This document shows positions 3,987 through 47,694 of a DNA stretch of 64,000 bases, in pieces (position 1 is the first letter of the stretch; each line of letters begins with the position of its first letter). A program made the position numbers and the translations under genes. Where the stretch lies: the NCBI RefSeq assembly GCF_008520305.1, contig NZ_ML703271.1, forward strand, positions 62,001-126,000, in the 5' to 3' direction. The notes beneath the pieces were generated by a model, which saw only the letters and a program-made list of their open reading frames with translations, had not been told where the DNA came from and did no database searches. Origin of the DNA: Mesorhizobium sp. SARCC-RB16n. Lineage in GTDB: Bacteria > Pseudomonadota > Alphaproteobacteria > Rhizobiales > Rhizobiaceae.

Positions 3987-4026
3987 CATCCAATCTGTGA
4001 GGCTCATCGGGAGCGAGGAAAGAACA

Positions 4027-5472: not shown

Positions 5473-5499
5473 ACCAGCTTCGTTTCAAACGGCTGACGG

Positions 5500-6429: not shown

Positions 6430-6481
6430 CGGCACTCCCCCATCCCTTGACTCCAATCGCCATGGTTATAAGACATATCAT

Positions 6482-7282: not shown

Positions 7283-9006
7283 CCGAGACCAAACGCAAAC
7301 TGCGGTCCGAAGCCTGGTTCGGCGGCGAAGGCAAGAACGCCTTCATGCACCGCAGCTGGATGAAGAACCAGGGCATTCCGGCTGATGCTTTCGACGGCCG
7401 CCCGGTGATCGGCATCTGCAACACCTGGTCGGAACTGACCCCGTGCAATGCCCACCTGCGGGGGCTGGCCGATCACGTCAAGCGCGGTGTCTACGAAGCC
7501 GGCGGCCTGCCGCTGGAATTCCCTGTGATGTCGCTGGGCGAAAGCAACATGCGCCCGACCGCCATGTTGTTTCGGAACCTGGCCAGCATGGATGTCGAGG
7601 AGTCCATCCGCGGCAATCCAATCGACGGCGTCATCCTGCTGGTCGGCTGCGACAAGACCACGCCGGCGCTCTTGATGGGTGCCGCCTCGTGCAATCTGCC
7701 GACTATCGCCGTCTCCGGCGGGCCGATGCTGAACGGCAAGTTCCGTGGGCAGGATATCGGCTCGGGCACACATGTCTGGAAATTCGCCGAGGAGGTCAAG
7801 GCCGGCCGCATGCCGGTCGCCGATTTCCTCGCCGCCGAGCAAGGCCAGAGCCGGTCGGCGGGCAGCTGCATGACGATGGGCACCGCCTCGACCATGGCCA
7901 GCATGGTGGAAGCACTCGGCATCGGCATGCCGGATAATGCCGCGATCCCAGCGGTGGATTCGCGCCGTGGCGTGCTCGCCCAGCTGGCCGGACGGCAGAT
8001 CGTCGATCTTGTCCGCCGCGACGTGACGATTTCGCAGATCCTCACCAGGCAAGCCTTCGAGAATGCCATTCGCGTCAACGGCGCGATCGGCGGCTCGACC
8101 AATGCGGTGCTGCATCTGATCGCAATCGCCAACCGCGTCGGCGTCGATCTCAGCCTCGATGACTGGGACCGCCTTGGCCGCGGCGTTCCAACCATCGTCG
8201 ACCTGATGCCGTCGGGGCGGTTCCTGATGGAAGATTTCTACTATGCCGGGGGGCTAGCTGCGGTCATGGCGTCGCTTGATGAAGTGGGGCTTCTTCATCG
8301 CGACGCCATGACCGTCAGCGCCAAGACGATCGGCGAACTGATCGACGGCGCGCCCAACTACAACAGCGAGGTCATCCGGCCGCTGAGCGAGCCGCTGACC
8401 AGAGAAGGTGGCATCTCGATCCTGCGCGGCAATTTGGCTCCCAACGGCGCGGTCATCAAGCCGTCGGCGGCAACGCCCGAACTGATGCAGCATCGCGGCA
8501 AGGCGGTCGTCTTCGAGAACATCGAGCACTACTACGCCCGCATCGACGATCCGGAGCTGGATATCGACGCCTCCTCGGTAATGGTGCTGAAGAACTGCGG
8601 GCCACGCGGCTATCCCGGCATGGCCGAAGTCGGCAACATGCCGCTGCCGGCCAAGCTGCTCAGAGAAGGCGTCTCCGACATGGTGCGCATTTCGGACGCG
8701 CGCATGAGCGGTACCGCCTACGGCACCGTGGTGCTGCATGTGGCGCCCGAGGCTGCGGCAGGCGGCGCGCTGGCGCTGGTGCGCGACGGCGATCTCATCG
8801 AGCTCGACGTCGCCGGCCGCCGGCTGGAGTTGCTGGTGTCCGACGAGGAACTGGCGATCCGCCGTCGCGACTGGAAGCCGCCGGCGCCGCCCGAAGGTGG
8901 CTACCAGAGCCTCTATGTTGAGCGCGTTCTGCAGGCCGACAAGGGCTGCGACTTCGACTTTCTCGTCGGCCGGCGCGATGCCGGCATCCCCCGGCATTCC
9001 CATTAG
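7279..9006 (+). CDS. IlvD/Edd-family sugar-acid dehydratase, L-arabinonate-dehydratase type
   Basis: Dehydrates an aldonic acid to a 2-keto-3-deoxy acid; 575 residues, the normal size of the pentonate dehydratase branch. The [2Fe-2S] cysteines are visible at Cys56 (SELTPCNAH), Cys124 (VGCDKTTP) and Cys197 (AGSCMTMGTAST), and the C-terminal catalytic Ser lies in SDARMSGTAYGT at about 480. From memory it resembles the Rhizobium leguminosarum L-arabinonate dehydratase over its whole length, including the WFGG and HRSWMKNQGIPAD N-terminal segment. It starts at a GTG overlapping the regulator stop and is followed 11 bp later by the SDR. Related enzymes accept D-fuconate or D-galactonate, so the exact sugar acid is uncertain. 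Confidence 0.88.
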   Translation: MTETKRKLRSEAWFGGEGKNAFMHRSWMKNQGIPADAFDGRPVIGICNTWSELTPCNAHLRGLADHVKRGVYEAGGLPLEFPVMSLGESNMRPTAMLFRNLASMDVEESIRGNPIDGVILLVGCDKTTPALLMGAASCNLPTIAVSGGPMLNGKFRGQDIGSGTHVWKFAEEVKAGRMPVADFLAAEQGQSRSAGSCMTMGTASTMASMVEALGIGMPDNAAIPAVDSRRGVLAQLAGRQIVDLVRRDVTISQILTRQAFENAIRVNGAIGGSTNAVLHLIAIANRVGVDLSLDDWDRLGRGVPTIVDLMPSGRFLMEDFYYAGGLAAVMASLDEVGLLHRDAMTVSAKTIGELIDGAPNYNSEVIRPLSEPLTREGGISILRGNLAPNGAVIKPSAATPELMQHRGKAVVFENIEHYYARIDDPELDIDASSVMVLKNCGPRGYPGMAEVGNMPLPAKLLREGVSDMVRISDARMSGTAYGTVVLHVAPEAAAGGALALVRDGDLIELDVAGRRLELLVSDEELAIRRRDWKPPAPPEGGYQSLYVERVLQADKGCDFDFLVGRRDAGIPRHSH

Positions 9007-9017
9007 AGAGGCGCGCG

Positions 9018-9797
9018 ATGACGGATCAGATCGGCAGCTACGCGACCTACCCCAGCCTCAAGGGCCGCAGCGTGTTCATCACCGGGGGCGGCAGCGGCAT
9101 CGGCGAAAGCCTGGTGCGCCATTTCTGCGCGCAAGGCAGCCGCGTCGCCTTTGTCGACCTGGCCGAGGAGCCTTCCCGGCGCCTGGTCGATGCGATCGCG
9201 ACCGAGGGACACGCCGCGCCGCTGTTCATTCCCTGCGACCTGCGCAATGTCGAAGAGCTGCAGGCCGCCACCGCGCAGGCGGCGCGGCACAACGGCCCGA
9301 TCCAGGCGCTGTGCAACAATGCCGGCAATGACGACCGCCACCAGACCAAGGACGTGACGGTGGCGTATTGGGACGACCGCATGGCGGTCAATCTGCGCCA
9401 CCAGTTCTTCGCCGCCCAGGCAGTGCGCCCGCAGATGAGCGCGCAGGGCGGCGGCTCGATCATCAATTTCGGTTCCATCACCTGGATGGTCGGCGATCCC
9501 GATTGCCCCGCCTACGTGACCGCCAAGGCGGCGGTGTACGGCATGACGCGAGCGCTGGCCCGCGAACTCGGCCCCGAGCGCATCCGCGTCAACTGCATGG
9601 TGCCTGGCTGGGTGATGACAGAGCGCCAGATGCGGTTGTGGCTGAACCCGGCCGGCGAACGCCAGATCTCGGAGCGGCAATGCCTGCCCGACCGGCTGCA
9701 GCCTTCCGATATCGCGCGCATGGCGCTGTTCCTCGCCGCCGACGACAGCCTGATGTGCACGAGCCAGCAGTTCATCGTCGATGCGGGTTGGGTGTGA
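9018..9797 (+). CDS. Short-chain dehydrogenase of the sugar/keto-deoxy-acid type
   Basis: Cytoplasmic SDR of 259 residues. TGGGSGIG cofactor motif (about 22-29), NNAG, catalytic Ser in NFGSITW and the YxxxK pair in PAYVTAKAA are intact; the late VPGWV motif is usual for the classical family. GAGGCGCG precedes the ATG. Two roles fit the neighbourhood: oxidation of the free aldose to its lactone, or oxidation of 2-keto-3-deoxypentonate at C4. The second would make a 2,4-diketo acid that an FAH-family hydrolase, encoded next, could split. I cannot choose between these from sequence alone. Confidence 0.82.
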   Translation: MTDQIGSYATYPSLKGRSVFITGGGSGIGESLVRHFCAQGSRVAFVDLAEEPSRRLVDAIATEGHAAPLFIPCDLRNVEELQAATAQAARHNGPIQALCNNAGNDDRHQTKDVTVAYWDDRMAVNLRHQFFAAQAVRPQMSAQGGGSIINFGSITWMVGDPDCPAYVTAKAAVYGMTRALARELGPERIRVNCMVPGWVMTERQMRLWLNPAGERQISERQCLPDRLQPSDIARMALFLAADDSLMCTSQQFIVDAGWV

Positions 9798-9829
9798 CTG
9801 GCACGGTCTCTAAGGAAGAAGGGTATTTC

Positions 9830-10828
9830 ATGCGTCTTGTTCAGTACACAACGCTCGATGGCGGCAGGCGGGTCGGCCTTGTCTCCGATGACGGCGATCG
9901 CCTGCATCCGCTCGAAAACACCAGCACGGTGCTGGAACTCGCCGAAGCGGCAATCGCGCAAGGCGCGTCCATCGCATCGCTGGTCGAGAAGCGGACGGGC
10001 ACTGCAACGATCGACTATGACGAGCTGTTGCGCGATGGCCGCGTGCTCGCTCCCGTCGACCATCCCGAACCGGCGCGGTTCCTGGTCACCGGCACCGGCC
10101 TGACCCACACCGGAAGTGCCGCCGCGCGCGACAAGATGCATGTGCTGACCCATGGCGAGGACGCAGAGGAATCGGATTCGCTGAAGATCTTCCGCATGGG
10201 CCTGGAAGGCGGCAAGCCCGGTGCCGGCAAGATCGGTATCCAGCCGGAATGGTTCTTCAAGGGCGTCGGCACCTGTGTCGTGCCGCCTGGCGCCGATCTG
10301 CCCATGCCGGCCTTCGCGCGCGCCGGCGCCGAAGAGGCCGAGATCGTCGGCCTCTACCTCAACGGGCCTGATGGCCGCCCCTATCGCATCGGCTATGCGC
10401 TGGGCAACGAATATTCCGACCATGTGACGGAGGCCGAGAACTACCTCTATCTCGCCCATTCCAAACTCCGCGCCTGTTCGATCGGACCCGAGATTTTGAT
10501 CGGCGACCTGCCCGAAGAGGTGCGCGGCCATTCCCGCATCCTGCGCGACGGCGCTGTCATCTGGGAACAGGACTTCCTGTCGGGCGAAGCGCACATGTCG
10601 CACTCGATCGCCAATCTCGAGCACTTCCATTTCCGCTACCCGATGCACCGCAGGGCGGGCGACCTGCACGCCTACTTCTTCGGCGCGGCGGTGATGAGCT
10701 ACGCCTCCGGCGTCAAGACGGCTTCCGGCGACGAGTATGAAATCCAGGCACAGACGTTCGGCAAGCCACTGCGCAACCGGATGGTTTCGGTGCCGGACGA
10801 GGGACTGGTCACCGTCACCCAGCTGTGA
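9830..10828 (+). CDS. gguC: GguC/AraD1-type FAH-family protein
   Basis: Fumarylacetoacetate-hydrolase superfamily protein of 332 residues, matching the length and opening (MRLVQYTTLDGGRRVGLV) of the GguC/AraD1 proteins found with sugar-acid genes in Agrobacterium and other proteobacteria. The core FAH region includes PEWFFKGVGTCVVPPG, the acidic metal ligands in GAEEAEIVGLY, and EYSDHVTEAENYLYLAHSKLRACSIGPE. FAH enzymes cleave C-C bonds next to a keto group or dehydrate keto-deoxy acids. The open frame extends far upstream, but GGAAGAAGGG just before the ATG at 9830 and the family length decide this start. It closes the enzyme set dehydratase, SDR and FAH protein; the importer operon begins 53 bp downstream in the same direction. 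Confidence 0.82.
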   Translation: MRLVQYTTLDGGRRVGLVSDDGDRLHPLENTSTVLELAEAAIAQGASIASLVEKRTGTATIDYDELLRDGRVLAPVDHPEPARFLVTGTGLTHTGSAAARDKMHVLTHGEDAEESDSLKIFRMGLEGGKPGAGKIGIQPEWFFKGVGTCVVPPGADLPMPAFARAGAEEAEIVGLYLNGPDGRPYRIGYALGNEYSDHVTEAENYLYLAHSKLRACSIGPEILIGDLPEEVRGHSRILRDGAVIWEQDFLSGEAHMSHSIANLEHFHFRYPMHRRAGDLHAYFFGAAVMSYASGVKTASGDEYEIQAQTFGKPLRNRMVSVPDEGLVTVTQL

Positions 10829-10881
10829 CGGCGAAAGCCCCGGAAATTACGGTCCAACAGAACGACAATGGGAGATTAAAA

Positions 10882-11907
10882 ATGGGACTGAAGAAAGCGT
10901 TCCTGAGACTAGCGACGATCGGGCTCGGTATCGGCCTGATGACATCGGCGGCGCTGGCCGCGAACCTGCGCGTGCTGGCCTGGGACGGCTACGCCGACCC
11001 AGACTGGGTGAAGGACTTCACCGCCGCCACCGGCATTGGCGTCGACGTCGTCTTCATCGGCAGCGATGACGAGATCTGGGCCAAGATTAAGGGCAGCGAA
11101 GGTCAGGACTTCGACGTCTTCGCCGTCAACACCGCCCAGCTGCAGCGCTATATCAAGGCCGATCTGGTGTCGCCGATCGACATCACCAAGCTGCCGAACC
11201 AGAAGGACGTGCTGCCGCGCTTCCGCGATCTGTCCCAGGTCAGCGGCGACACCAAGGACGGCAAGGTCTACGGCATTCCGTTCTGCTTCGATTCCATCGG
11301 GCTGATCTACGACACCGACAAGGTCAAGCCGGCGCCTACCTCGATGTCGGTCTTGTGGGATCCGGCCTACAAGGGCAAGATCCTCGCCTACGACAATGGC
11401 GAGCACAATTTCTCGTTCACCGCGCTGACGCTCGGCTACAAGGATCCGTTCAACCTCAATGCGGAGCAGATGGCTGCGGTCAAGGCCAAGCTGGTCGAGC
11501 TCAAGCGCAATGTGCTGAGCTTCTACACCACCGCCGACGAGGCGCAGCAGATCTACCAGAACAATGACGTTGCGCTGATCTGGGCCAATTATGGCCAGCA
11601 GCAGGTCAAGGCGCTGCAGAAGATCGGCGCCCATGTCGCCTACGTCAACCCGAGCGAAGGCGCGCTTGCCTGGCTCGACAACTGGGTGATCTCCAAAGGC
11701 GTCCGCGACAACGCGGCGGCCGAGAAGTGGATCGACTTCATGCTGACGAAGAAGATCGGCGGCGAGCTTTCCGAGCGTACCGGCTTCGGAAATACCGTGG
11801 TCGAGTCGAGCAGCGCCGGCGGCAACGACAAGCTGGTCTGGCTCAACAATGTCGAGGACCCGCTCAAGCGTTCGGACATGTGGAATGAGGTCAAGGCGAC
11901 ACCCTGA
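10882..11907 (+). CDS. PotD/PotF-like periplasmic substrate-binding protein
   Basis: Substrate-binding protein of a spermidine/putrescine-type ABC importer, 341 residues. The N-terminus is a clear Sec signal peptide (MGLKKAFLRLATIGLGIGLM followed by a small-residue site ending ALAAN). The mature part opens with LRVLAWDGYADPDWVKDFTAATGI, the PotD-like fold start. A frame opens 57 bp earlier, but GGGAG shortly before the ATG at 10882 and the signal peptide position fix the start. It lies 53 bp after the FAH gene on the same strand and could be co-transcribed with the sugar-acid operon. Members of this family also bind opines, amino acids and other cations, so polyamine is only a family label. 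Confidence 0.85.
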   Translation: MGLKKAFLRLATIGLGIGLMTSAALAANLRVLAWDGYADPDWVKDFTAATGIGVDVVFIGSDDEIWAKIKGSEGQDFDVFAVNTAQLQRYIKADLVSPIDITKLPNQKDVLPRFRDLSQVSGDTKDGKVYGIPFCFDSIGLIYDTDKVKPAPTSMSVLWDPAYKGKILAYDNGEHNFSFTALTLGYKDPFNLNAEQMAAVKAKLVELKRNVLSFYTTADEAQQIYQNNDVALIWANYGQQQVKALQKIGAHVAYVNPSEGALAWLDNWVISKGVRDNAAAEKWIDFMLTKKIGGELSERTGFGNTVVESSSAGGNDKLVWLNNVEDPLKRSDMWNEVKATP

Positions 11908-11934
11908 TCCTTTCGCGCCTGACTTCGAAGGACC

Positions 11935-11961
11935 CGGCGGTCCGGACGTTCCGGACCGCCG
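11935..11961 (+). promoter_or_regulatory. Strong stem-loop between binding-protein gene and ATPase gene
   Basis: A perfect 12-bp inverted repeat, CGGCGGTCCGGA and TCCGGACCGCCG separated by CGT, lies 27 bp after the binding-protein stop and 21 bp before the ATPase start. No run of T follows, so it is not a classical terminator. Such hairpins after binding-protein genes usually protect the upstream mRNA from 3' decay and lower downstream expression; that role is inferred here. Confidence 0.75.
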
Positions 11962-11982
11962 AAGCGTATGCGAGAATATTCC

Positions 11983-13086
11983 ATGAACCAGAACATCGAC
12001 CTCTTGACGCTGCGGTCCGTCTCGAAATCCTACGGCACGGTTCCCGTGCTGCACGACATCGACCTGTCGATCCGGGATGGTGAGTTCCTCACCGTTCTTG
12101 GACCGTCAGGCTCCGGGAAGACCACGGTCCTGCGGCTAATCGGCGGACTGGAGCCGCTGACCGCGGGCGAAATCCGGCTGGACGGCCAGGACATCAGCCG
12201 CATGCCGATCAACAAGCGGCCGTTCAACACCGTGTTCCAGGACTATGCGCTGTTCCCGCACATGACCGTTTCCGGCAATGTCGGCTACGGGCTTTCGGTG
12301 CGCCATATCAAGCGCAAGGAGATCGCAAGCCGTGTGTCGCAAGCCCTCGAACTGGTGCAGCTCGGGCGTTTCGCCGAGCGCTTTCCGGCGCAGCTTTCCG
12401 GCGGGCAGCGCCAGCGTGTCGCGCTCGCCCGGGCGCTGATCTGCCAGCCGCGCCTGATCCTGCTCGACGAGCCGCTCGCGGCACTCGACCTCGAACTGCG
12501 CCGGCAGATGCAGGAATTCCTGAAATCCATCCAGCGCGAAATCAAGACCACTTTCCTGTTCGTCACCCACGACCAGGAAGAAGCGATCGGCATGGCTGAT
12601 CGGATCTGCGTCATGCAGGCCGGCCATATCCGTCAGCTCGGTACGCCGCATGAGCTCTACTACAAGCCGAATTGCGAATTCGTGGCGCGCTTCTTCGGCG
12701 AGAACAATCTGGTGGCTGGAAAACTTGGGCCGGTCCAGGGCGAGCAGCGCCCGATCGAGACGGCCCTTGGACGCCTGGTCTGTTCGATCTGCGACCAGCC
12801 GCATCTGAAGACCGCCCCCGACGGGGTCAGCGCCTTCGCGGCGTTCCGTCCCGAAGCCTTGCATCTTGCGGATGCCAAGGATGGCGCCAACCGCTTTTCC
12901 GGCACCATTACCGATCTGGCCTTTGCCGGCTCGTCGACGGTCGCAACGATCATGGCTGGGGCGAACGATGCCGCGCAGCGCCTGCGACTGCGCATGCCAA
13001 GCCGGATCGACGGCAGCGCGCTGAAATCCGGCGAGATGGTCTCGCTTTGCTTTGCGCCGCATGAAGGCCATCTGGTGCTGGCATGA
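11983..13086 (+). CDS. PotA/PotG-like ABC importer ATP-binding subunit
   Basis: Cytoplasmic ATPase of the polyamine-type importer, about 367 residues. Walker A GPSGSGKT, Q-loop VFQDYALFPHMTV, signature LSGGQRQR, Walker B LILLDEP and H-loop FVTHDQEEA are canonical. The C-terminal third is a TOBE-type regulatory domain (FRPEALHL region onward). Two ATGs are possible, 11968 and 11983; neither has a strong ribosome site, and I prefer 11983 because GCGAGA lies upstream at usable spacing. The stop overlaps the first permease gene as ATGA. Substrate follows the binding protein and is not defined here. Confidence 0.87.
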   Translation: MNQNIDLLTLRSVSKSYGTVPVLHDIDLSIRDGEFLTVLGPSGSGKTTVLRLIGGLEPLTAGEIRLDGQDISRMPINKRPFNTVFQDYALFPHMTVSGNVGYGLSVRHIKRKEIASRVSQALELVQLGRFAERFPAQLSGGQRQRVALARALICQPRLILLDEPLAALDLELRRQMQEFLKSIQREIKTTFLFVTHDQEEAIGMADRICVMQAGHIRQLGTPHELYYKPNCEFVARFFGENNLVAGKLGPVQGEQRPIETALGRLVCSICDQPHLKTAPDGVSAFAAFRPEALHLADAKDGANRFSGTITDLAFAGSSTVATIMAGANDAAQRLRLRMPSRIDGSALKSGEMVSLCFAPHEGHLVLA

Positions 13087-13955
13087 GCAGAGCCGGCTCG
13101 ACGCACTCTGCGGAAGGTCGCTTGTCGCAGCTGGTTACAGTGCTGGCGTTTGCCCTGCCTGTCATCTTCGTCCTCGTGCCGCTGGCGATCTTCCTGGTCT
13201 ACAGTTTCTTCGGCGTCGACCAGGGCACGATCGTCTACGCGCCGACGCTCAGCAACTATGTCAGGTTCTTCACCGATCCGATCTTTCTGCCGGTGTTCTG
13301 GAACACCATCGTGCTCTGTGTGTCAGTCGCTGTCATCTGCATCCTGCTTGCCTATCCCGCCGCCTATTTCCTGACGACGCTGAAAGGGCGGTGGCGCTAT
13401 GCCTTGCTGATGCTGCTCCTGGTGCCGCTGCTGATGAGCTACGTCATCAAGATCTATGCGATCCGCAGCATCCTCGGCCTCAACGGCTTCCTCAACAAAG
13501 CGCTGGTGGCGCTCGGCATCCTGGATCAGCCATCGACGCTTTTCGTCTTCAACATGAACGCCATCCTTTTGACGCTGAGCCTGCTTTTGATCCCTTTCGC
13601 CATCCTGCCGATCTTCCTGTCGCTGGAGCGGATCCCGCAGACCTTGCTGCGTGCCTCGGACGATCTGGGCGCGAGCAGCCTGCAGACATTCCTGCGCATC
13701 ACCTTGCCGCTCAGCCTGCCCGGCGTCGCCTCGGCGGCAAGCTTCGTCTTCGTGCTTGCGATCGGCGACTTCTTGACGCCGCAGATGGTCGGCGGGATCA
13801 GCGGCTTCACCTTCGGCCGCATCCTCTACAGCCAGTTCGGCACTGCCTACAACTGGCCGTTCGGCGCGGCGCTGTCGGTGGCGCTGGCGATCGTGGTGAT
13901 CTGCGCAATCCTCGTCGGCGAAAGGTTTGGACGCAGCCGGGGGACGTCAGTATGA
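13083..13955 (+). CDS. PotB/PotH-like ABC importer permease
   Basis: Inner-membrane permease of 290 residues with about six transmembrane segments. The first hydrophobic helix follows a short polar N-terminus, then a periplasmic loop with YSFFGVDQGTIVYAPTLSNY. The cytoplasmic EAA-type coupling loop is RIPQTLLRASDDLGASSLQTFLRITLPLSLPG, where the usual EA is RA. The segment FVLAIGDFLTPQMVGG is typical of this family. The gene overlaps both neighbours by ATGA, so it is translated together with the ATPase and the second permease. Confidence 0.88.
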   Translation: MSRAGSTHSAEGRLSQLVTVLAFALPVIFVLVPLAIFLVYSFFGVDQGTIVYAPTLSNYVRFFTDPIFLPVFWNTIVLCVSVAVICILLAYPAAYFLTTLKGRWRYALLMLLLVPLLMSYVIKIYAIRSILGLNGFLNKALVALGILDQPSTLFVFNMNAILLTLSLLLIPFAILPIFLSLERIPQTLLRASDDLGASSLQTFLRITLPLSLPGVASAASFVFVLAIGDFLTPQMVGGISGFTFGRILYSQFGTAYNWPFGAALSVALAIVVICAILVGERFGRSRGTSV

Positions 13956-14749
13956 GCGCGCCCCGGCCTTCCACGATCTTCCTGGCCGCGATCACGGCGC
14001 TGGTCGCGGTGCTGCTCTACAGCCCATTGTTCGTGCCGATCGTGTCGTCGTTCTTCACCATTTCACATGGCAATGTCGACTGGTCGTCGCCCACCCTTTC
14101 GACCTATGTGGCGCTGGCTGGAAACCATGAGATCCTGGCCGCCTTGCGCACCACGCTGATCGTTGGTCTCTGCACCGTCGTGCTCTCGGTGGTCAGCGGA
14201 ACGCTGCTGGCGCTCTACTATCACGGTCGCCGCTTCGGACGCTCTTACCTGCAGTTCATCATCTTCCTGCCGTTCCTGATGCCACCGATCATCAGCGGCC
14301 TGGCACTGCTGATCTTCTTCCGCGAGATCGGCCTCGAGCGCTCGCTGCTGACCGTCGTCATCGGCCACACGGTGTTCGTGCTGGCAATCGTCTATCGCAC
14401 CGTGCTGATGCGGCTGCAGTCGATGAGCCGCACGCTGGTCGAGGCATCCTACGATCTCGGCGCGACGGGCTGGCAGACCTTCTGGCGCATCATCCTGCCG
14501 AACCTGTCGAGCGCCATGGTCGGGGGCGCCATCCTGGCCTTCGCGCTGTCGTTCGACGAAACCATGATCACCATCCTCGTCACCGGCACGCAAAGCACGC
14601 TGCCGGTCAGGCTGTGGGCGATGATGCGGCTTGGCTTTTCGCCCGACATCAACGCGCTGGTGGCGCTGATCCTGATGTTCACCGTGCTGCTCTGCGTGCT
14701 TGCTGCCCGTTTTCTGATCCCCAGGCAGATGGCGACGGAACGGACCTGA
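13952..14749 (+). CDS. PotC/PotI-like ABC importer permease
   Basis: Second permease of the polyamine-type importer, 265 residues, about six membrane spans. The EAA loop reads RTLVEASYDLGATGWQTFWRIILPNL, and ALSFDETMITILVTG after it matches PotC/PotI. The start is the ATG overlapping the preceding stop; the longer open frame is an out-of-register shadow of the first permease. This is the last gene of the plus-strand run beginning at 6482 or 10882. Only 17 bp separate its stop from the stop of the convergent FAD-linked dehydrogenase gene. Confidence 0.88.
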   Translation: MSAPRPSTIFLAAITALVAVLLYSPLFVPIVSSFFTISHGNVDWSSPTLSTYVALAGNHEILAALRTTLIVGLCTVVLSVVSGTLLALYYHGRRFGRSYLQFIIFLPFLMPPIISGLALLIFFREIGLERSLLTVVIGHTVFVLAIVYRTVLMRLQSMSRTLVEASYDLGATGWQTFWRIILPNLSSAMVGGAILAFALSFDETMITILVTGTQSTLPVRLWAMMRLGFSPDINALVALILMFTVLLCVLAARFLIPRQMATERT

Positions 14750-14766: not shown

Positions 14767-16170
14767 TCATCCGGCAGAAATAGTTGGGTCGAGGTTGAAG
14801 ACGCGACCCGGATTGAGGATGTTCTTCGGATCGAGCGCCGTCTTCAGCCGCCGCATCGTGGCGATTTCAGTGTCGCTGCGCACCAGATGCAGCCACTGCT
14901 TCTTGTCGAGGCCGATGCCATGCTCGGCCGACACGCCGCCTCCGGCCGCCGCCACGCCGCGATAGATGATGCCATATGCCGCCGCCGGATCCTTGGTCAG
15001 GACCTGATAGTGCAGGTTGCCGTCGCCGAGATGGCCGAAGACATAGATGTCGGCGCCGGGATCGACGGCATGGATGGCGGCGTCGGCTTCTTGCAGGAAT
15101 GCTCCCATCCTCCGCAACGGGATGCTGACGTCGACGCCGATCAGGCCTTTGATCGAAAACAGAACGCGGTTGGCGTCTTCGCGCACATCCCAGAGCGCGC
15201 GGAATTCGCGCGGCGATTGCGAGACGACCACATCGTCGACGACGCCGTCCTCGACCGCCTGCATCAGGACCTCGGCGAAGCGCTCGCCGTCGCGTTCGGG
15301 CTCGCTGCCCTGGATTTCGGCCAGCACATAGACCGGCGAGCCAGCCGGCAACGGCGCCGGCATGGTCATGCTGGCAACCATGACGTCATAGAGCGGCGCG
15401 AAATTGACCTCATAGGCCGACAACAACGGGCCGAGCCTGAGCCGCAACAATCCCAGCAGGGCGATCGCCGCATCGAGCGAAGGCAGCGCGCAGAAGGCGT
15501 TCACCTCGGACGCGGGCTTGGGATGCAGCCTGAGCGCGGCGCGGGTGACGACGCCGAGCGTCCCTTCAGCGCCGATGAAGAGTTGGCTGAGGTCGTAGCC
15601 GGAATTGTCCTTGGGCAGGCCTTTGAGCGACGTCAGAACGCTGCCATCGGCAAGGACCGCCTCGAGCCCCAGCACCTGCGCCCGGTACATGCCGTAGCGC
15701 AGCACGCGGATGCCGCCGGCATTGGTGGCGATGTTGCCGCCGACCGTGGCGGAGCCCCGCGCGCCGATATCGACACCGAACATCAGTTCGGCGCCGTCGG
15801 CGGCCTCCTGCACCGCCTGCAGGGTGGCACCGGCTTCGGCAACGATGGTGGCGGCTTGACGATCCGGCGCGGCAAGGCCGGTCATGCGCTCCAGCGACAG
15901 CACGATCTCGTCCGGCTGGACGCGTGCGCCACCGGCCAGTCCGGTGCGTCCGCCCTGGACGACGACTGGCTGGCCGAGAGCGTTGCACGCTGCCAGCACG
16001 GCCGCGACACCATCGGTATCGCGCGGACGCAACACGGCTTCAGGAAGGGCGCCGAGCTTGCCGTCGGGATCGTCGCGATAGCGCTGGTCGACGTCGGAGC
16101 CGGCGAGCACACCGCCCACGCCCAGCCTGTCGCCAAGCGCGGAGAGAAGCTGTTGTGTTTCAGGCGACAT
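14767..16170 (-). CDS. FAD-linked D-2-hydroxyacid dehydrogenase (GlcD/D2HGDH family)
   Basis: Flavoprotein of 467 residues that oxidises a D-2-hydroxy acid to the 2-oxo acid. The N-terminal FAD-binding half has VVQGGRTGLAGGA (residues about 75-87) and the conserved GSATVGGNIATNAGG segment; the C-terminal substrate domain shows the metal-binding motif FGHLGDGNLHY and the final EHGIGLDKKQWL. The frame opens 141 bp upstream, but that part would overlap the regulator gene, and the family start MSPETQQLL at 16170 lies 16 bp after its stop. D-2-hydroxyglutarate, D-lactate and glycolate are all known substrates in the family. In an operon with a hydroxylysine-type kinase and lyase, D-2-hydroxyglutarate is attractive but unproven. 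Confidence 0.85.
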   Translation of the reverse strand: MSPETQQLLSALGDRLGVGGVLAGSDVDQRYRDDPDGKLGALPEAVLRPRDTDGVAAVLAACNALGQPVVVQGGRTGLAGGARVQPDEIVLSLERMTGLAAPDRQAATIVAEAGATLQAVQEAADGAELMFGVDIGARGSATVGGNIATNAGGIRVLRYGMYRAQVLGLEAVLADGSVLTSLKGLPKDNSGYDLSQLFIGAEGTLGVVTRAALRLHPKPASEVNAFCALPSLDAAIALLGLLRLRLGPLLSAYEVNFAPLYDVMVASMTMPAPLPAGSPVYVLAEIQGSEPERDGERFAEVLMQAVEDGVVDDVVVSQSPREFRALWDVREDANRVLFSIKGLIGVDVSIPLRRMGAFLQEADAAIHAVDPGADIYVFGHLGDGNLHYQVLTKDPAAAYGIIYRGVAAAGGGVSAEHGIGLDKKQWLHLVRSDTEIATMRRLKTALDPKNILNPGRVFNLDPTISAG

Positions 16171-16186
16171 TGCCAATCCTGTTCCA

Positions 16187-16840
16187 TCAGTCGGCGCGAA
16201 GATTTTCCGAGAGAACCGCGGCCGCCGCGGCGATGTCCTGTTCAAGGGATGCGCGAACGGCTGGACCGTTGCGCTGTTCCAGCGCGACGACGATCCTGCG
16301 GTGTGCGTCATTGGATTGCGGAATGTAGCGGTCAGCCCGCATCAGGACCTTGAGATAGGGTCCAACCCGACCCCAGAGATCGCGGATCATGTTCAAGAGG
16401 ATCGGCGCGCCGGCGTGCTCATAGATAGCAAAATGGAAGGCCTCGTTCAGGGAAAGATAGGCCCCGGCGTCGCCGGCCTCGATGGCGCGCTGCATGCCGG
16501 CGAGCGCGGCCTGTATGTCGACCAGCGCGCTCTCACTCATCCGCGTGGCCGCCATCTCGCCGGCCAATCCCTCGACGGCGATGCGGATGCGCGTCAGTTC
16601 CTCGAAAGCGGGCTCGGACAGCAAGGGCACGATGATCGAGCGGTTGTTCTGCATTTCCAGAAGCCGCTCGGCGACCAGCCTTTGCAGCGCCTCGCGGATC
16701 GGCGTGGTCGAAATGCCAAAGGTTTCGGCAAGCTTGCGGATGACAAGCGTCTGGCCGGGGCTGAAACCGCCTGAAATCAATTCCTGCTTGAGCGCGCCAT
16801 AGGCGCGATCATTGAGGGTTTGATGTTCGAGCTTCAGCAT
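16187..16840 (-). CDS. GntR-family (FCD-type) transcriptional regulator
   Basis: Regulator of 217 residues: N-terminal winged helix (LNDRAYGALKQELISGGFSPGQTLVIRKLAETFGISTTPIREALQRL, about 9-55) and an all-helical FCD ligand domain with the conserved NEAFHFAIYEHAG and SNDAHRRIVVALE metal-ligand motifs. It sits inside the operon, 15 bp after the lyase stop and 16 bp before the dehydrogenase start, so it is probably autoregulated with the whole unit. An imperfect palindrome at 20547-20572 upstream of the first operon gene is a reasonable candidate operator. Confidence 0.87.
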   Translation of the reverse strand: MLKLEHQTLNDRAYGALKQELISGGFSPGQTLVIRKLAETFGISTTPIREALQRLVAERLLEMQNNRSIIVPLLSEPAFEELTRIRIAVEGLAGEMAATRMSESALVDIQAALAGMQRAIEAGDAGAYLSLNEAFHFAIYEHAGAPILLNMIRDLWGRVGPYLKVLMRADRYIPQSNDAHRRIVVALEQRNGPAVRASLEQDIAAAAAVLSENLRAD

Positions 16841-16855
16841 GCGCGCCCGCTCAGC

Positions 16856-18169
16856 TCACCATTTCGACAGTGCGAGGTCGAGCGTCTCGGCCAGTTGCTC
16901 GGCATTGTCCCTGGCAAAGGGCAGCGGCGGCCTGATCTTCAGCACATTGCCGCGCGGACCGCAGGACGAAATCAGCACGCCGTCCTCGCGCATGGTTTCG
17001 ACGACGGATGAGGTCTTGGCAGCGGCAGTGGCCCCATCCTCTGCCGCCAGCTCGACGCCGAAATAGAGGCCATTGTGCCTGACGTCGGCGACCATGCCGT
17101 GCCGCCTCTGCAAGGCGCGCAGCAGGTCTCCCGTATAGGCGCCCACGTTTCGTGCGTTCTCGATCAGTCCCTCGCCTTCGATCACCTCAAGCACGGCGAT
17201 ACCGACGGCGGCCGCGACCGGATTGCCGCCGAAGGTGTTGAAGTAGCCGGTGTTCGAACCGAACGAGCTCACCAGCTGCGGCCGCACGATCACCGCGCCC
17301 ATTGGATGCCCATCGCCGATCGGCTTGCCCATGGTGACGATGTCCGGCTCGAGGCCATAATTGGCGAAGCCCCACATGCCCTGGCCAAGCCGGCCGAAAC
17401 CGGACTGGACTTCGTCGGCGATGACGATGCCGCCCGCCTTCCTGACGTGATCGGCCACCTCGCGCATGACGGCCGCATCGGGGAAGAAGATGCCGTCGCT
17501 GGAAAAGGCCGAGTCGAGAAGCAGCGCCGCCGGGCGGATGTTTTGCGCGCGCATATCCTCGATCGCGGCGGCGACATTTTTGGCGAAGTCATGGGCGGCG
17601 CGGCCATGGTCGCGGAACGTGTCCGGCGCTGCCACGGTGCGATGCTGCGCGGGCACGCCCGCTGCTCCGACCGCTGCCGGCGACAGCTGCGCTGTCGCGA
17701 TGGTGGCGCCGTGATAGGCGAAATCGGTGATGATCACGCCAGTGTTGCCGCTGGAGTGCTGGGCGATGCGGATGGCGAGGTCGTTGGCCTCGCTGCCGGT
17801 GCAGGTGAACATGGCGTGGCCGAGATGGAGCGGAAGCGTGCCGAGCAGCTTTTCCGCGTAATCGAGGATGATCTCGCTGAGGTAGCGCGTGTGGGTGTTG
17901 AGCGTGGCTGCCTGCCCCGACAAGGCCTCGACGACGCGTGGATGGCAGTGTCCGACCGAGGCGACGTTGTTGTAGGCGTCGAGGAATTTTCGGCCCTGCG
18001 AATCGTAAAGCCAGACACCGCTGCCGCGCACCAGATGGATCGGGTTGCGGTAAAAGGCGCGATAGGTCGGCCCGAGCAACCTGGCGCGGCGTTCGAGCAG
18101 CGCGCGCCCTTGTGCGGAAACTCCGGCATCGGCAGAGGCACTTGCGGGCAAGGACTGAGACACGGGCAT
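16856..18169 (-). CDS. Class III PLP enzyme, PHYKPL/ETNPPL-like phospho-lyase
   Basis: PLP enzyme of 437 residues in aminotransferase class III. It contains FLDAYNNVASVGHCHPRVVEA (about 62-83) and NTHTRYLSEIILDYAEKL, which closely follow the animal AGXT2L1/AGXT2L2 proteins, now known as O-phosphoethanolamine and 5-phosphohydroxylysine phospho-lyases. The PLP pocket is intact: GSEAND at 125-130, AYHG at 151-154, DEVQ at 252-255 and the Schiff-base Lys282 in TMGKPIGDG. The next upstream gene, a hydroxylysine-kinase-like protein, ends one base before this start, the pairing expected for kinase plus phospho-lyase. The expected reaction is loss of ammonia and phosphate to give an aldehyde. Ordinary transaminase activity cannot be excluded. 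Confidence 0.82.
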   Translation of the reverse strand: MPVSQSLPASASADAGVSAQGRALLERRARLLGPTYRAFYRNPIHLVRGSGVWLYDSQGRKFLDAYNNVASVGHCHPRVVEALSGQAATLNTHTRYLSEIILDYAEKLLGTLPLHLGHAMFTCTGSEANDLAIRIAQHSSGNTGVIITDFAYHGATIATAQLSPAAVGAAGVPAQHRTVAAPDTFRDHGRAAHDFAKNVAAAIEDMRAQNIRPAALLLDSAFSSDGIFFPDAAVMREVADHVRKAGGIVIADEVQSGFGRLGQGMWGFANYGLEPDIVTMGKPIGDGHPMGAVIVRPQLVSSFGSNTGYFNTFGGNPVAAAVGIAVLEVIEGEGLIENARNVGAYTGDLLRALQRRHGMVADVRHNGLYFGVELAAEDGATAAAKTSSVVETMREDGVLISSCGPRGNVLKIRPPLPFARDNAEQLAETLDLALSKW

Positions 18170-19228
18170 CTACTCCGGCTTGGAATGATCGAGAAAATAG
18201 CGGCGGGCGTCCGCGGGCGACAGCCCGTCCAGCCGTTCGAGCGAGGTCCAGACCTCGGTAATGAGGCGCAGGACATAGTCGCGCTTGGCCGGAAACCGCT
18301 CGGCCTGCCAACTGGCGATATTGGCGATGAGCGCAAGCCGTGCACGAATGAGGTGGAAGAGGATGCCAAGCTCTTCGATTTCGAGCGGCTGCACCGACTG
18401 ATAACCGGCGACGAAGCGAGCCGCAGGCGCCAGCGGATGACCTTCAGCCGGCCAGCGGTAGACGGCACCGATTGCGAGATCGCAGATCAGCGGCGAGTGG
18501 ATCATGTCACCGAAATCGAGGATGCCGCTGACCATTTCCGGCCGCGAGGCATTCATCACCACATTGTAGGAATTCATGTCGTTGTGGACGATCTGGGCGC
18601 GCAGCCCGGGGATGACGGGTGCGGCATGTTCCTCGAAGGCATCGATGACGCGCTCGACCATGGCGCGATGGCCGGCGTCAGTGATGCACGCCAGCATCGG
18701 CCGTGTCTTCGCCACCTTGCGAATGTCCCACAGAAGGTCGCTGCCGGCGGCCGGATGGAAGAAGCCGCGCAGTGCCCGGCCGAGCCGGGCGAGGAAGATG
18801 CCGAGATTGCGATCCTGCGCCGCCGACGTGGGCGAGCGCGAAAGCAGCTGGCCGGGCAGATAGGTGACCAGCCGCACGATGCGCGGCGCCGATCCGCCGA
18901 CGCTGACCATAAACTGCGCTTCGCCTTCGAGGCTCTTGCGCACCGAGGGAACAGGCAAGGCCGGATCGACCGCCAGGATGTGGTCGAGCGCCATGTTCTG
19001 GAAATCGGTGAAGCCGGCCTCTTCCGCCGGATGCGAGACCTTCAGGACGAACTCGCCCTCGCCTTCTGTCTGGATATGGAAATTATGGTCGCGCTCGCCT
19101 GGCAGCGGGCGCGCGCTGCCGGCGAGCCCGTAGTGCCGGCGCAATATGGCAAGCGCCTCGGCGATCGAAACGTCAGGCGCATCCTCGGCGAGCGTCTCGC
19201 CGAAGGCATCCGACACGGCCGCGTTCAT
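18170..19228 (-). CDS. APH-family small-molecule kinase, hydroxylysine-kinase-like
   Basis: Aminoglycoside-phosphotransferase-fold kinase of 352 residues. The ATP lysine lies in EFVLKVSHPAEE, the catalytic loop is IVHNDMNSYNVV (HxDxxxxN) and the metal-binding Asp is in GILDFGDM. The order and wording RPLPGERDHNFHI, RLVTYLPGQ and GILDFGDMIHSPL track the animal hydroxylysine kinase HYKK closely, from memory. Its ATG overlaps the peptidase stop (ATGA) and its stop abuts the phospho-lyase start, so the pair is co-translated. Phosphorylation of the hydroxyl of 5-hydroxylysine, or of ethanolamine or a similar amino alcohol, is the likely step before elimination by the next enzyme. Confidence 0.82.
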   Translation of the reverse strand: MNAAVSDAFGETLAEDAPDVSIAEALAILRRHYGLAGSARPLPGERDHNFHIQTEGEGEFVLKVSHPAEEAGFTDFQNMALDHILAVDPALPVPSVRKSLEGEAQFMVSVGGSAPRIVRLVTYLPGQLLSRSPTSAAQDRNLGIFLARLGRALRGFFHPAAGSDLLWDIRKVAKTRPMLACITDAGHRAMVERVIDAFEEHAAPVIPGLRAQIVHNDMNSYNVVMNASRPEMVSGILDFGDMIHSPLICDLAIGAVYRWPAEGHPLAPAARFVAGYQSVQPLEIEELGILFHLIRARLALIANIASWQAERFPAKRDYVLRLITEVWTSLERLDGLSPADARRYFLDHSKPE

Positions 19229-20526
19229 GGCCCGACCTCGGGATCGATGGGTTCGAGACCGCACCAGTCGGCGATGAACAGCGCGATGGTCTGGGTGACC
19301 TTGCGCACGGAGTCGAGATCGACGGCCTCGTCATAGCCATGCGGCATGCGGCAGATCGGGCCGTAGACGATCGCCGGCGTGTCGGCATAGAGACCGAAGA
19401 AGCGCGCATCGGTGGTGGCCGAGGTGACATGCTCGGTCAGCGGCTCGCCCCAGACGGCGGTGTGGCTGCGCCGCAGCACCACTTCCATATCGTCGGCGCC
19501 TTCCAGCACATACCCCCCGGCCATGAAGCCGTTATAGGTCATCCTGGGCGGGCGATTGGCGAGGAACGGATCGGCGTGCGCCGCATTGGCGATGCAAGCC
19601 TCGAGTTCGGCCCTGGCATCTTCGAGCTTCTGGCCGGGATAGGTCGCGACACGCATCTCGAAGACGCAGCGCGCCGGAACGCTCGATGTCCATTCGCCGC
19701 CCTCGATCTTGCCCAGGTTGAAGCGGATCGGGTGCGGGTGATCGCAGAAATGCCTGTCGCTGACCTTCCTCGCATTCCAGACGATTTCGAGCTGCTTCAG
19801 CGCCTGGATGATGAGGAAGGCCTTCTCGATGGCATTGGCGCCGGCAGAAAAGGCACCCGACGCGTGCTGCGGATCGCCGTCGACCTCGACCTTGAACCAG
19901 ATCGGCCCGACCTGCGCCCGCATCAGCCTTGGCTCCAGCGGCTCGGGTATGAAGGCGGCATCGGCGCGATAGCCACGCTGCAGACAAGCGAGCGCGCCGT
20001 TGCCGGTGCACTCCTCCTCGACCACAGACTGCAGATATACATTCGCAGCCGGCTGGTAACCGAGGCCGCGCAAGGCGGCCAGCGCATAGAGGCAGGCCGA
20101 CAGGCCGGCCTTCATGTCGCCGGCGCCGCGGCCATGCATCCAGCCGTCCTCGATCGCCGGATCGTAGGGGTCGCGTACCCAGCGATCGAGCGGTCCTGTC
20201 GGCACCACGTCGATATGGCCGTTGAGGATCAGCGAGCGGCCGGTGGCGTTTCTCGGCGTATGGGTGGCGACGACGTTGAAGGCATCGTCATATGAAACCG
20301 CCACGGGTGAAAATCCGGGCAGGTCGCGGATTGCATCGACATCGACGCGCCACATATCGACCACATAGCCATTGGCTTCATACGCAGCCGCCATGAAGGA
20401 TTGCGCGGCATGCTCCTCGCCGCGTTGCGAGGGAAAGCGCACGAGATCAGCCATAAAGGCGAGCTGACGGTCGAAACCATCGTCGACCGCCCGCAAAATG
20501 GCCTCATCCGCAATTCGCTCAGGCAT
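19225..20526 (-). CDS. M20-family metallopeptidase/deacylase (ArgE/DapE type)
   Basis: Zinc hydrolase of 433 residues, the first gene of the five-gene minus-strand operon. Metal-binding motifs are present: LNGHIDVVPTG (His-x-Asp), GRGAGDMKAG (bridging Asp), VEEECTGNGA (catalytic Glu pair) and a late His in RMPHGYDE. The dimerisation insert PQHASGAFSAGANAIEK is typical of ArgE/DapE relatives. The frame opens 39 bp earlier, but AGGAAAG is placed for the ATG at 20526. In this operon it could release the amino acid that the kinase then acts on, for example from an N-acyl or small peptide form; the substrate is inferred only. Confidence 0.84.
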   Translation of the reverse strand: MPERIADEAILRAVDDGFDRQLAFMADLVRFPSQRGEEHAAQSFMAAAYEANGYVVDMWRVDVDAIRDLPGFSPVAVSYDDAFNVVATHTPRNATGRSLILNGHIDVVPTGPLDRWVRDPYDPAIEDGWMHGRGAGDMKAGLSACLYALAALRGLGYQPAANVYLQSVVEEECTGNGALACLQRGYRADAAFIPEPLEPRLMRAQVGPIWFKVEVDGDPQHASGAFSAGANAIEKAFLIIQALKQLEIVWNARKVSDRHFCDHPHPIRFNLGKIEGGEWTSSVPARCVFEMRVATYPGQKLEDARAELEACIANAAHADPFLANRPPRMTYNGFMAGGYVLEGADDMEVVLRRSHTAVWGEPLTEHVTSATTDARFFGLYADTPAIVYGPICRMPHGYDEAVDLDSVRKVTQTIALFIADWCGLEPIDPEVGP

Positions 20527-20546: not shown

Positions 20547-20572
20547 ATGGTGTATCATATCTCATATGCCAT
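20547..20572. promoter_or_regulatory. Imperfect palindrome in the divergent peptidase/GNAT promoter region
   Basis: ATGGTGTAT and ATATGCCAT form an imperfect inverted repeat (7 of 9 bases pair) about 20 bp upstream of the peptidase start, in an AT-richer stretch than its surroundings. Position and size fit a GntR-type operator for the regulator encoded in the same operon. This is a visual candidate only. Confidence 0.4.
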
Positions 20573-21422: not shown

Positions 21423-23069
21423 TCAGGTCGCCCGCGGCGCCGGCAGTCGCTCGCGCAGTTCGTCGACAAGCACCCTGGTATTTTCGGAATAGTCGATCGG
21501 CACGACGACGAGGTGGACGCCGCCGCCGGTGAAGGCCTGTTCCAGCGCCGGTCGCAATTCGGCGATTGCGCCGACCCTGGTCCCCTTGGCGCCATAGGCC
21601 TCGGCGTATTTTACGAAGTCGGGATTGCCGAAGGTCATGCCGAAATCCGGAAATTCGTCGACCGCCTGCTTCCAGCGGATCATGCCATAGGCATGGTCTT
21701 CGAGTAGCAGCACGACGAGGTTGAGCTTGAGCCTGACGGCCGTCTCCAGTTCCTGGCTGTTCATCATGAAGCCGCCATCGCCGCAAATCGCCATGACACG
21801 GCGCTTGGGATAGAGCAGCGCCGCCATCATCGCCGACGGCAGCCCGGCGCCCATGGTGGCCAGCGCGTTGTCGAGCAGCAGCGTGTTTGCCATGCGCGTG
21901 CGGTAGTTGCGCGCGAACCAGATCTTGTACATGCCGTTGTCCAGCGCGAGGATCCCGTCGGCCGGCATTACGGCGCGTACGTCGTGCACGATGCGCTGCG
22001 GCGTGAAGCGGTCTTCGGTGGCGCGCGCGGCGATGCGGCTCAAAATGCCTTCGCGCAGCGGCAGCAGGGCCTGTGCGTTGGGGATCTTGCCTTCGACGCG
22101 GTCCGCCAGCAGCGCCAGCGACGGACCGAGGTCACCGACGATCTCGGCTTGCGGGAAATAGACCTGCTCGACATCAGCCGAGTGGTAGCCGACATGAATG
22201 ACCTTCGGTCCCGTCGCGCCCATGATGAAGGGTGGCTTCTCGACCGTGTCGTGGCCGATGGTGATGATCAGATCGGCCTGCTCGATGGCCTCGTGGACAT
22301 AGTCGCGCTCCGAAAGGGCCGCCGTCCCCATGTAGAGCTCGGTGCCGCCGGGCACCGTGCCCTTGCCCATCTGCGTGGTGAAATAGGGGATTTGCGTGCG
22401 CAGCACGAACTGGGCGATGTCAGGGGTCACGCGAGGGCGTGACGCCGCGGCGCCGAACATCAGCAGCGGACGCTTGGCCTCCATGATCATGCGAGCGGCG
22501 CGATCGAGCGCGTCCACGCTGGCTATGGGCAGGTCGACCGGATGCGTCGGCACCAGCGCGACCGGCTCGCATTCGGCCGCGGCGATGTCTTCCGGCAGCT
22601 CCAGATGCACGGGCCCCGGCCGCTCCTCCTGCGCGACGCGGAAGGCTTCGCGCACCAGCGAGGGGATCATCTTCGGCGAGACGATCTGGCGTGACAGCTT
22701 GGTCAGCGGCTTCATCGCCGCGACGATATCGACGATCTGGAAACGCGCCTGCCTGGATGACAGGATGCCCTTCTGGCCGGTGATCATGATCATCGGCATC
22801 GCGCCGAGCAGCGCATAGGCCGAGCCGGTCGTCAGATTGAGCGCGCCGGGGCCGAGCGTGGTGATGCACACGCCGGGCTTGCCGGTAAGCCTGCCATAGG
22901 TGGCGGCCATGAACGCGGCCGCCTGCTCGTGGCGGGTCAGGATCAACTGGATCGACGAGCGGCGGATCGATTCGACGATGTCGAGATTTTCCTCGCCCGG
23001 AATGCCGAATATCCGATCGACCCCTTCGTTCTGGAGGGCCGCCACGAACAGATCCGAACCCTTGGTCAT
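21423..23069 (-). CDS. Thiamine-diphosphate enzyme, acetolactate-synthase-like large subunit
   Basis: ThDP-dependent enzyme of 548 residues. The N-terminal Pyr domain has FGIPGEENLDIVESI and the activating Glu in RHEQAAAFMAATYGRLTGKPGVC; the C-terminal PP domain has GDGGFMMNSQELETAVRLKLN, the ThDP-Mg motif. Wording is closest to biosynthetic or catabolic acetolactate synthases, and no small regulatory subunit follows, which favours a catabolic or other decarboxylase/ligase role. AGGAGAG eight bases before the ATG at 23069 decides against the earlier start at 23114. It is convergent with the GNAT gene and stands alone on its strand. Confidence 0.83.
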   Translation of the reverse strand: MTKGSDLFVAALQNEGVDRIFGIPGEENLDIVESIRRSSIQLILTRHEQAAAFMAATYGRLTGKPGVCITTLGPGALNLTTGSAYALLGAMPMIMITGQKGILSSRQARFQIVDIVAAMKPLTKLSRQIVSPKMIPSLVREAFRVAQEERPGPVHLELPEDIAAAECEPVALVPTHPVDLPIASVDALDRAARMIMEAKRPLLMFGAAASRPRVTPDIAQFVLRTQIPYFTTQMGKGTVPGGTELYMGTAALSERDYVHEAIEQADLIITIGHDTVEKPPFIMGATGPKVIHVGYHSADVEQVYFPQAEIVGDLGPSLALLADRVEGKIPNAQALLPLREGILSRIAARATEDRFTPQRIVHDVRAVMPADGILALDNGMYKIWFARNYRTRMANTLLLDNALATMGAGLPSAMMAALLYPKRRVMAICGDGGFMMNSQELETAVRLKLNLVVLLLEDHAYGMIRWKQAVDEFPDFGMTFGNPDFVKYAEAYGAKGTRVGAIAELRPALEQAFTGGGVHLVVVPIDYSENTRVLVDELRERLPAPRAT

Positions 23070-23406
23070 GAACCGTCTCTCCTGCGATGCGCGCATTCCG
23101 TCAGCCACCTTCATATGGCACCAGAACGCGACGCCTCAAAGAGCGCAAGCCGTCTGCTGGCGATAACGCCATCAATTTCGGCTAGGCGGCCGCCAATGCG
23201 CTGCTCGAAGCGCGATGGCGAACAAATCACTTCTTCTGGGCAATATCGCCCTTGAAGGCGTCGCTCTCCATTCCTAAATCCCTAGCGCGGGCCGGGCCCC
23301 TCTGACTGTCGCTTTTGGCGACCGTGATGTCGGACCGCTATAACGGGCCCCCTTTCCATTTCTTTCGGTCGAGCGGGCTCATTCCTTCATTGGTTAGGAG
23401 CCCCTG
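23070..23406. other. 337-bp intergenic region, divergent promoters
   Basis: No gene is visible. The left part carries the leader and ribosome site of the ThDP enzyme. A small hairpin (GTCGC/GCGAC) lies near 23308-23322. A good plus-strand promoter candidate is at 23315-23344, and TAGGAG precedes the zinc-ribbon gene start. Confidence 0.6.
23315..23344 (+). promoter_or_regulatory. Candidate sigma-70-type promoter for the zinc-ribbon/Tim44 genes
   Basis: TTGGCG at 23315-23320 and TATAAC at 23339-23344 are separated by 18 bp. They lie about 62 bp before the ATG of the zinc-ribbon gene in otherwise non-coding sequence. Called by eye. Confidence 0.45.
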
Positions 23407-43290: not shown

Positions 43291-43292
43291 GG

Positions 43293-44651: not shown

Positions 44652-44722
44652 TGCCCTCTCCAAAACGCGAATGAGGGAGCGCTGGCCGCTCCCTCTGTTT
44701 CCTGTCCGTCAGTCGCGCCCGG

Positions 44723-46180: not shown

Positions 46181-46258
46181 GTCGGTATTCCTGGGTGCTC
46201 AGAGAACCGCGTTGATTTTTCGGAGGCAGGAGCATCACGCCTCGGCAATGGCTTCCCT

Positions 46259-46392: not shown

Positions 46393-46413
46393 GGGGTCGA
46401 CATCTGGCTCAGC

Positions 46414-47670: not shown

Positions 47671-47694
47671 CTGGTATCCTCGAAATCGGCCGCT

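Follow-up and report, generated by a model that had tools for sequence, protein, structure and literature searches.

What does a bacterium gain from a kinase gene and a pyridoxal 5'-phosphate (PLP) enzyme gene set end to end, behind a deacylase gene and ahead of a regulator, and how many of the genes around them belong to the same pathway? The question is raised by five consecutive genes in a 64,000-nt stretch of DNA from Mesorhizobium sp. SARCC-RB16n (NZ_ML703271.1, 62,001-126,000), referred to here as the window, whose positions supply the coordinates below. We find that the stable unit comprises four of these genes, encoding an M20 deacylase, a kinase, a PLP enzyme, and a GntR regulator. 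Together with a conserved dyad upstream, this four-gene operon probably serves to catabolise an N-acylated amino alcohol. The features are as follows.

19225..20526, minus strand: gene 1, M20-family ArgE/DapE-type deacylase (Peptidase_M20 and M20_dimer; passes subfamily model PRK06837 with 667.5 bits, cut-off 376)
18170..19228, minus strand: APH-fold small-molecule kinase, probably an amino-alcohol kinase (APH, 91.9 bits)
16856..18169, minus strand: class III PLP enzyme, predicted O-phospho-amine phospho-lyase (Aminotran_3, 237.7 bits, cut-off 30.5)
16187..16840, minus strand: GntR/FCD regulator, probably a local repressor (GntR, 64.8 bits; FCD, 85.4 bits)
14767..16170, minus strand: flavin adenine dinucleotide (FAD)-linked D-2-hydroxyacid dehydrogenase, a co-directional neighbour and not a constant member (FAD_binding_4 and FAD-oxidase_C)
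20556..20568, minus strand: candidate operator, a 13-bp inverted repeat (CATAT-GAG-ATATG) lying 30-42 nt ahead of the M20 start codon

An earlier reading of the letters without database searches (the sequence-only reading) had called these five genes in this order and at these coordinates; all are present on the minus strand, and all five products score above curated Pfam cut-offs. The M20 and kinase genes share a 4-nt ATGA overlap. The kinase and lyase, described in that reading as fused, are separate genes in the window, where the kinase stop codon stands directly before the ATG of the PLP enzyme and the gap is zero. Gaps of 15 and 16 nt separate the PLP enzyme gene from GntR and GntR from the FAD gene. 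Since the third-position G+C of the five frames is that of coding DNA and four of the genes are contiguous in all 33 related loci described below, the five-gene observation reflects more than chance. An upstream in-frame ATG was considered as the M20 start and judged less likely. Of 32 loci, 16 keep the longer frame open, 14 have stops in it, and two have it out of frame, which makes 20526 the likelier start. Database searches were run with three translations (P0001, P0004, and P0005) that carry 10, 12, and 13 residues extra upstream of the favoured start codons.

The four-gene unit and its variable neighbour

The comparison draws upon 33 Mesorhizobium loci (L001-L033) found by their kinase, a sample uninformative on genomes without one; the window's kinase is 87-94% identical to these loci over the best segment. 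The M20, kinase, lyase, and GntR genes are contiguous in 33 of 33. The FAD gene follows GntR within 300 nt in six of the 33. A DadA-like oxidase gene follows GntR in the other 27 and, in 26 of these, opens a cassette whose remaining genes encode a branched-chain/urea-type ATP-binding cassette (ABC) transporter, a second GntR protein, and an aldo-keto reductase; the sequence of L023 ends before this part of the cassette. The DadA-like oxidase was also considered as an L-pipecolate oxidase, a role not assigned to it at 294 bits against a cut-off of 600.

In the window, a polyamine-type ABC transporter at 10825-14749 is encoded convergently with the FAD gene. A close ortholog of the FAD gene is present in nine of ten operon-bearing genomes and lies approximately 10 kb downstream in three of the four cassette genomes searched (G001, G002, and G006). 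In G002 it stands beyond the cassette, after a solute-binding-protein-like gene (judged by its start) and ahead of the ABC transporter known from the window; G006 presents the same order of matches. No close ortholog was found in the tenth genome, G009, which has the operon, the cassette, and the transporter. On a tree of the four-gene stretch, computed with a quick method and SH-aLRT (Shimodaira-Hasegawa-like approximate likelihood ratio test) support only, adjacency of the FAD gene changes five times, at least four of them by well-supported branches, and 32 of 500 shuffles yield a number as low. The simplest way to read this scatter is that the cassette was lost repeatedly, and exchange between strains could produce it as well.

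The sequence-only reading had taken the five genes as one unit. A search for that order across genomes does not bear this out, and we reject the five-gene unit on the count of six in 33, the scatter of the adjacency over the tree, and the lack of a close ortholog in G009. The FAD dehydrogenase most likely belongs to a different, neighbouring module. Among solved structures, it matches 3pm9 (306 bits), human D-2-hydroxyglutarate dehydrogenase (6lpn, 269 bits), and D-lactate dehydrogenase (175 bits), in that order.

Beyond these loci, a kinase match at an E-value of 1e-30 occurs in 54 of 199 genomes of the same family group. Two of these matches, in G083 and in G006, the centre genome of that scan, have approximately 90% identity, against at most 41% for the remainder among the matches listed. 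The window M20 gene has no match in 34 distant loci at an E-value of 1e-15, and none at 1e-10 in a further 28 (L080-L107) within flanks of 1.5 kb. In this sample, the four-gene set is thus a Mesorhizobium feature, whereas the kinase-lyase pair is distributed far more widely.

Enzyme classes and the kinase-lyase tie

What kinds of reaction does the pair carry? The search of the PLP enzyme against solved structures returns 5g4i, the phospho-lyase A1RDF1 of Arthrobacter aurescens TC1, at 369 bits and 6tor, human O-phosphoethanolamine phospho-lyase, at 334 bits, whereas an amino acid amide racemase, the entry after these two, reaches 161. With an AlphaFold model (mean predicted local distance difference test score, pLDDT, 88), chains of the same two structures occupy Foldseek ranks 1-4, at identities of 44 and 41%. 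The PLP lysine, K282, is invariant in the alignment, as are N67, N68, V69, R95, and P283 in 39 aligned rows; in the printed alignments the latter five are common to both lyases and absent from three racemase entries representing two distinct proteins. The corresponding motifs are NNV at 67-69, R95, and MGKP at 280-283, and R95 may, as a guess, take part in phosphate binding. Given the bit scores, the Foldseek ranks, and the residues shared with the lyases, the enzyme is called a phospho-lyase by sequence; the case is strong, since it stands far nearer to phospho-lyases than to transaminases, in keeping with what had been read from the letters.

The kinase aligns with the kinase half of the NCBI fusion model PRK06148 at 280.5 bits, below that model's cut-off, and the best PDB match of its family profile is the aminopropanol kinase 6ef6 (E-values of 7.5e-19 with alignment A1 and 3.4e-18 with A3). 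Identity to 6ef6 is 17-18%, and by fold 2ppq and N-acetylhexosamine kinases score above it. Residues D217, N222, and D238 are invariant in the alignments; the motifs in question, HNDMNSYN (HxDxxxxN) and the DFG-like LDFGDM, are common to many APH kinases and not specific to hydroxylysine kinase (HYKK). Judged by its profile, the protein is probably an amino-alcohol kinase.

The association of the two enzymes proves durable in relatives. Kinase and lyase lie in one open frame of 744-1046 amino acids in 32 of 34 non-Mesorhizobium loci from the genome scan, which ties the two activities together; of the two exceptions, L035 has them apart and L042 runs off its contig. The earlier description of a fusion, wrong for the window, thus holds for most distant relatives. 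A lyase match also falls inside a frame of 1025-1110 amino acids in four of ten Mesorhizobium genomes, and in G006 the kinase shares that frame. Frames of 1014-1046 amino acids come from two Thorarchaeota assemblies and one Saprospiraceae assembly (L059, L062, and L066). Of three fusions scanned, two (L059 and L066) carry a cell-wall-type M23 peptidase domain between the kinase and lyase halves and the third has none.

Plasmids supply a further set. Of 60 kinase matches listed (312 records), 13 were opened, and two without annotated features were set aside; L074 and L140 seem to carry one and the same cluster, such that the 11 remaining loci are not independent. Kinase and lyase are adjacent genes in all 11. 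Within three genes of the pair are a GntR gene in nine loci and a short-chain dehydrogenase/reductase (SDR) gene in five (L071, L074, L139, L140, and L141). Two plasmids, from Chelatococcus and a member of the Comamonadaceae (L068 and L072), carry hydantoinase/carbamoylase-type amidases, which we take to be M20 enzymes, as well as histone-deacetylase-family genes near the pair. The Rahnella pair (L141) sits beside genes for gamma-aminobutyrate (GABA) transaminase, succinate-semialdehyde dehydrogenase, and an ABC transporter, and a Microvirga pair (L070) has a gabT gene nearby. Reading the substrate from such neighbours was rejected because the contexts of the 11 loci differ too much. Nor was the SDR of L139 of help as a candidate aminopropanol dehydrogenase, its best structure matches being an unnamed SDR (4x54) and FabG-like enzymes.

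Two observations stand apart. Histone-deacetylase-family genes recur near kinase-lyase pairs (L002, 3999-5120, upstream; L068, 5907-6950; L072, 3858-4898 and 7883-8911). On the Pseudomonas shirazica plasmid (L140, 7971-16990), a few kb separate the pair from a class 1 integron in which resistance genes are annotated.

The candidate operator, the proposed pathway, and its substrate

How might the operon be controlled? The inverted repeat at 20556-20568 reads CATATGAGATATG. One exact copy is present in each of the 33 Mesorhizobium loci, and in all 32 that were measured it lies upstream of the M20 start at a distance of no more than 70 nt (one locus was left out by a filter). In ten of ten whole genomes the dyad occurs once, with no occurrence of the reversed control. 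A search of four genomes with a free two-base spacer yields two further sites, both in G006, against one reversed-control match in G004. The window itself holds one exact dyad; at up to two mismatches it holds two sites against 0.41 expected, a number that 8 of 100 shuffles reach. Conservation, and not the count in the window, therefore carries the evidence. That conservation is not coding, given that a frame begun at the upstream ATG stays open in no more than half of the loci. On its sequence, the dyad is likely a single operator for a dedicated local GntR regulator, which is the simplest reading. A scan for promoters and terminators gave no signal, with one and two sites against 0.9 and 3.6 in shuffles.

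Sequence establishes the enzyme classes, the kinase-lyase tie, the four-gene unit, and the conservation of the dyad, whereas the acylated substrate, the amino alcohol within it, the order of steps, and repression are inferred. An N-acylated amino alcohol would lose its acyl group to the M20 enzyme, the kinase would phosphorylate the hydroxyl next to the terminal amine, and the PLP enzyme would eliminate phosphate and ammonia to leave an aldehyde, which an enzyme encoded elsewhere would oxidise. Bound to the dyad, the GntR protein would keep the operon off until an intermediate is present. The succession of release, phosphorylation, and elimination proposed in the sequence-only reading remains coherent, since a single operon encodes a deacylase along with a probable amino-alcohol kinase and a phospho-lyase. 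Pointers to an acylated substrate are the M20 gene, the amidases and histone-deacetylase-family genes near the pairs of L068 and L072, and the Hist_deacetyl gene of L002.

Which amino alcohol, then? Any single substrate has at best a minority chance. Each of the two substrate classes weighed next falls as a special case within this general reading, the breakdown of an N-acylated amino alcohol, so that the likelihoods given to them and to it do not sum to one.

The better placed, and still tentative, is the breakdown of ethanolamine, 1-amino-2-propanol, or 4-amino-3-hydroxybutyrate to acetaldehyde, propionaldehyde, or succinate semialdehyde, respectively. The naming of 6tor for O-phosphoethanolamine, a compound that 5g4i accepts as well, the aminopropanol kinase as best profile match of the kinase family, and the GABA-related genes near the Rahnella and Microvirga pairs all point this way. 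Those genes may, however, serve GABA itself, and the kinases of those pairs are approximately 40% identical to the window's and have no M20 gene annotated alongside, such that their substrates may differ.

Hydroxylysine catabolism is unlikely, if by no means negligible. Here, acyl- or peptidyl-hydroxylysine would be released and phosphorylated at C5, and the lyase would form 2-aminoadipate semialdehyde for oxidation by a dehydrogenase encoded elsewhere, with no D-2-hydroxyglutarate leg. The product could be used, since an L-piperidine-6-carboxylate dehydrogenase (NF050084) scores over its cut-off in nine of ten operon-bearing genomes, is cut by a contig end in the tenth, and occurs in one of 14 controls. 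Dehydrogenases of this type also serve lysine or pipecolate breakdown, however, and the operon itself contains no pointer to a six-carbon amino acid. AGXT2L2 is described as a lyase of phosphohydroxylysine (PMC9283133). Lipids of a soil bacterium have a proposed hydroxylysine head group, although the same paper holds that the hydroxylation is probably elsewhere than in 5-hydroxylysine (PMC4484230). More doubtful again is that bacteria have a route devoted to a diamine or amino acid that is both acylated and hydroxylated, such as N-acyl-hydroxylysine derived from amino-acid membrane lipids or from modified peptides, with deacylation, phosphorylation, and PLP elimination placed under one local GntR repressor that has a single operator in the genome; if true, animal hydroxylysine catabolism would gain a bacterial counterpart with a defined operon.

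Weakest is the proposal, made in the sequence-only reading, that all five genes form one pathway whose carbon is recovered via D-2-hydroxyglutarate: it can appeal to the co-directional FAD gene 16 nt away in the window, to the downstream orthologs in the three cassette genomes, and to an enzyme nearer D-2-hydroxyglutarate than D-lactate dehydrogenase, but the rare and shifting adjacency of that gene, its place beyond the cassette in G002 and G006, and the retention of the operon in G009 without a close ortholog make it very improbable. Hydroxyglutarate synthase (HglS), moreover, was found in only two of the ten operon-bearing genomes, mostly drafts of unstated completeness, and in one of the six with the FAD gene adjacent. 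In both HglS genomes (L076 and L077), the gene adjoins an FAD paralog of its own, 34% identical to the window's. With HglS in two of ten genomes and the FAD gene a variable neighbour, the D-2-hydroxyglutarate leg is rejected.

Neighbouring clusters and known systems

Other clusters in the window lie apart from the operon. A 2-aminoethylphosphonate degradation cluster at 40998-50030, with matches over NCBI cut-offs, comprises a PhnS binding protein, PbfA, phosphonoacetaldehyde dehydrogenase, PhnA, PhnW, and an associated LysR regulator. Its PbfA matches (R)-1-hydroxy-2-aminoethylphosphonate ammonia-lyase; with PbfA and the PLP enzyme of the operon, two distinct lyases belonging to the class III aminotransferase family are predicted in the window. 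A sugar-acid type cluster at 3808-10828 encodes an aldehyde dehydrogenase, an aldose epimerase, a GntR protein, a dihydroxy-acid/phosphogluconate dehydratase, an SDR, and AraD1/GguC, and a DAO-type oxidase fused to a GcvT-like folate-binding domain lies at 50183-52639. Near the operon, at 21423-23114, is an acetolactate synthase-like thiamine pyrophosphate enzyme (PRK08322, 815 bits), found likewise in five of the 33 related loci.

How does the operon compare with what has been described? The chemistry is known, and older reports exist of bacterial amino-alcohol kinase and phospho-lyase activities; no description of the gene combination was found among the papers listed. Animal HYKK and the phosphohydroxylysine phospho-lyase AGXT2L2 pair as kinase and then phospho-lyase. 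The operon follows the same succession of predicted activities, to which it adds an M20 deacylase and a GntR regulator. For AGXT2L2 (also PHYKPL), the PLP phospho-lyase activity is that reported in the paper cited above (PMC9283133).

A further comparison is with the amino-alcohol (RMM/AAUM, Aut) microcompartment of Mycobacterium and Rhodococcus, through the profile match to 6ef6 described above. Its Rhodococcus cluster includes a GntR regulator together with an aminotransferase-like protein and an APH phosphotransferase (PMC6620236). Unlike the operon, that cluster also encodes shell proteins, dehydrogenases, and a permease; none of these was detected among the open reading frames scanned beside the operon (part of those in the window), and kinase identity is the 17-18% noted above.

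The sequence-only reading knew of no described bacterial operon with this set. No operon of exactly this gene set was found in the literature among the matches listed, but a related one is published: the Herbaspirillum Hrubri_0242-0245 operon places a gene named for hydroxylysine kinase next to one named for 4-aminobutyrate aminotransferase, with an AsnC/Lrp regulator and a 2-haloacid dehalogenase in place of GntR and M20 (PMC13275390).

Among solved enzymes, 5g4i and 6tor stand nearest to the PLP enzyme in sequence and fold and have the NNV, arginine, and MGKP elements in common with it, at the identities noted. Pairs of a kinase and a phospho-lyase occur widely in bacteria, whether as fusions or as neighbouring genes, yet PRK06148 is named a hypothetical protein by NCBI and PRK06149 an aminotransferase. 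The four-gene form, compact and equipped with a regulator and a single conserved site in each genome, offers a convenient setting in which to find the substrate, and would aid in naming a family whose members mostly carry the annotations phosphotransferase and aminotransferase. The PRK06148/PRK06149 fusions hold in one chain the same two domains that the window encodes in separate kinase and PLP enzyme genes, below the cut-offs of both models.

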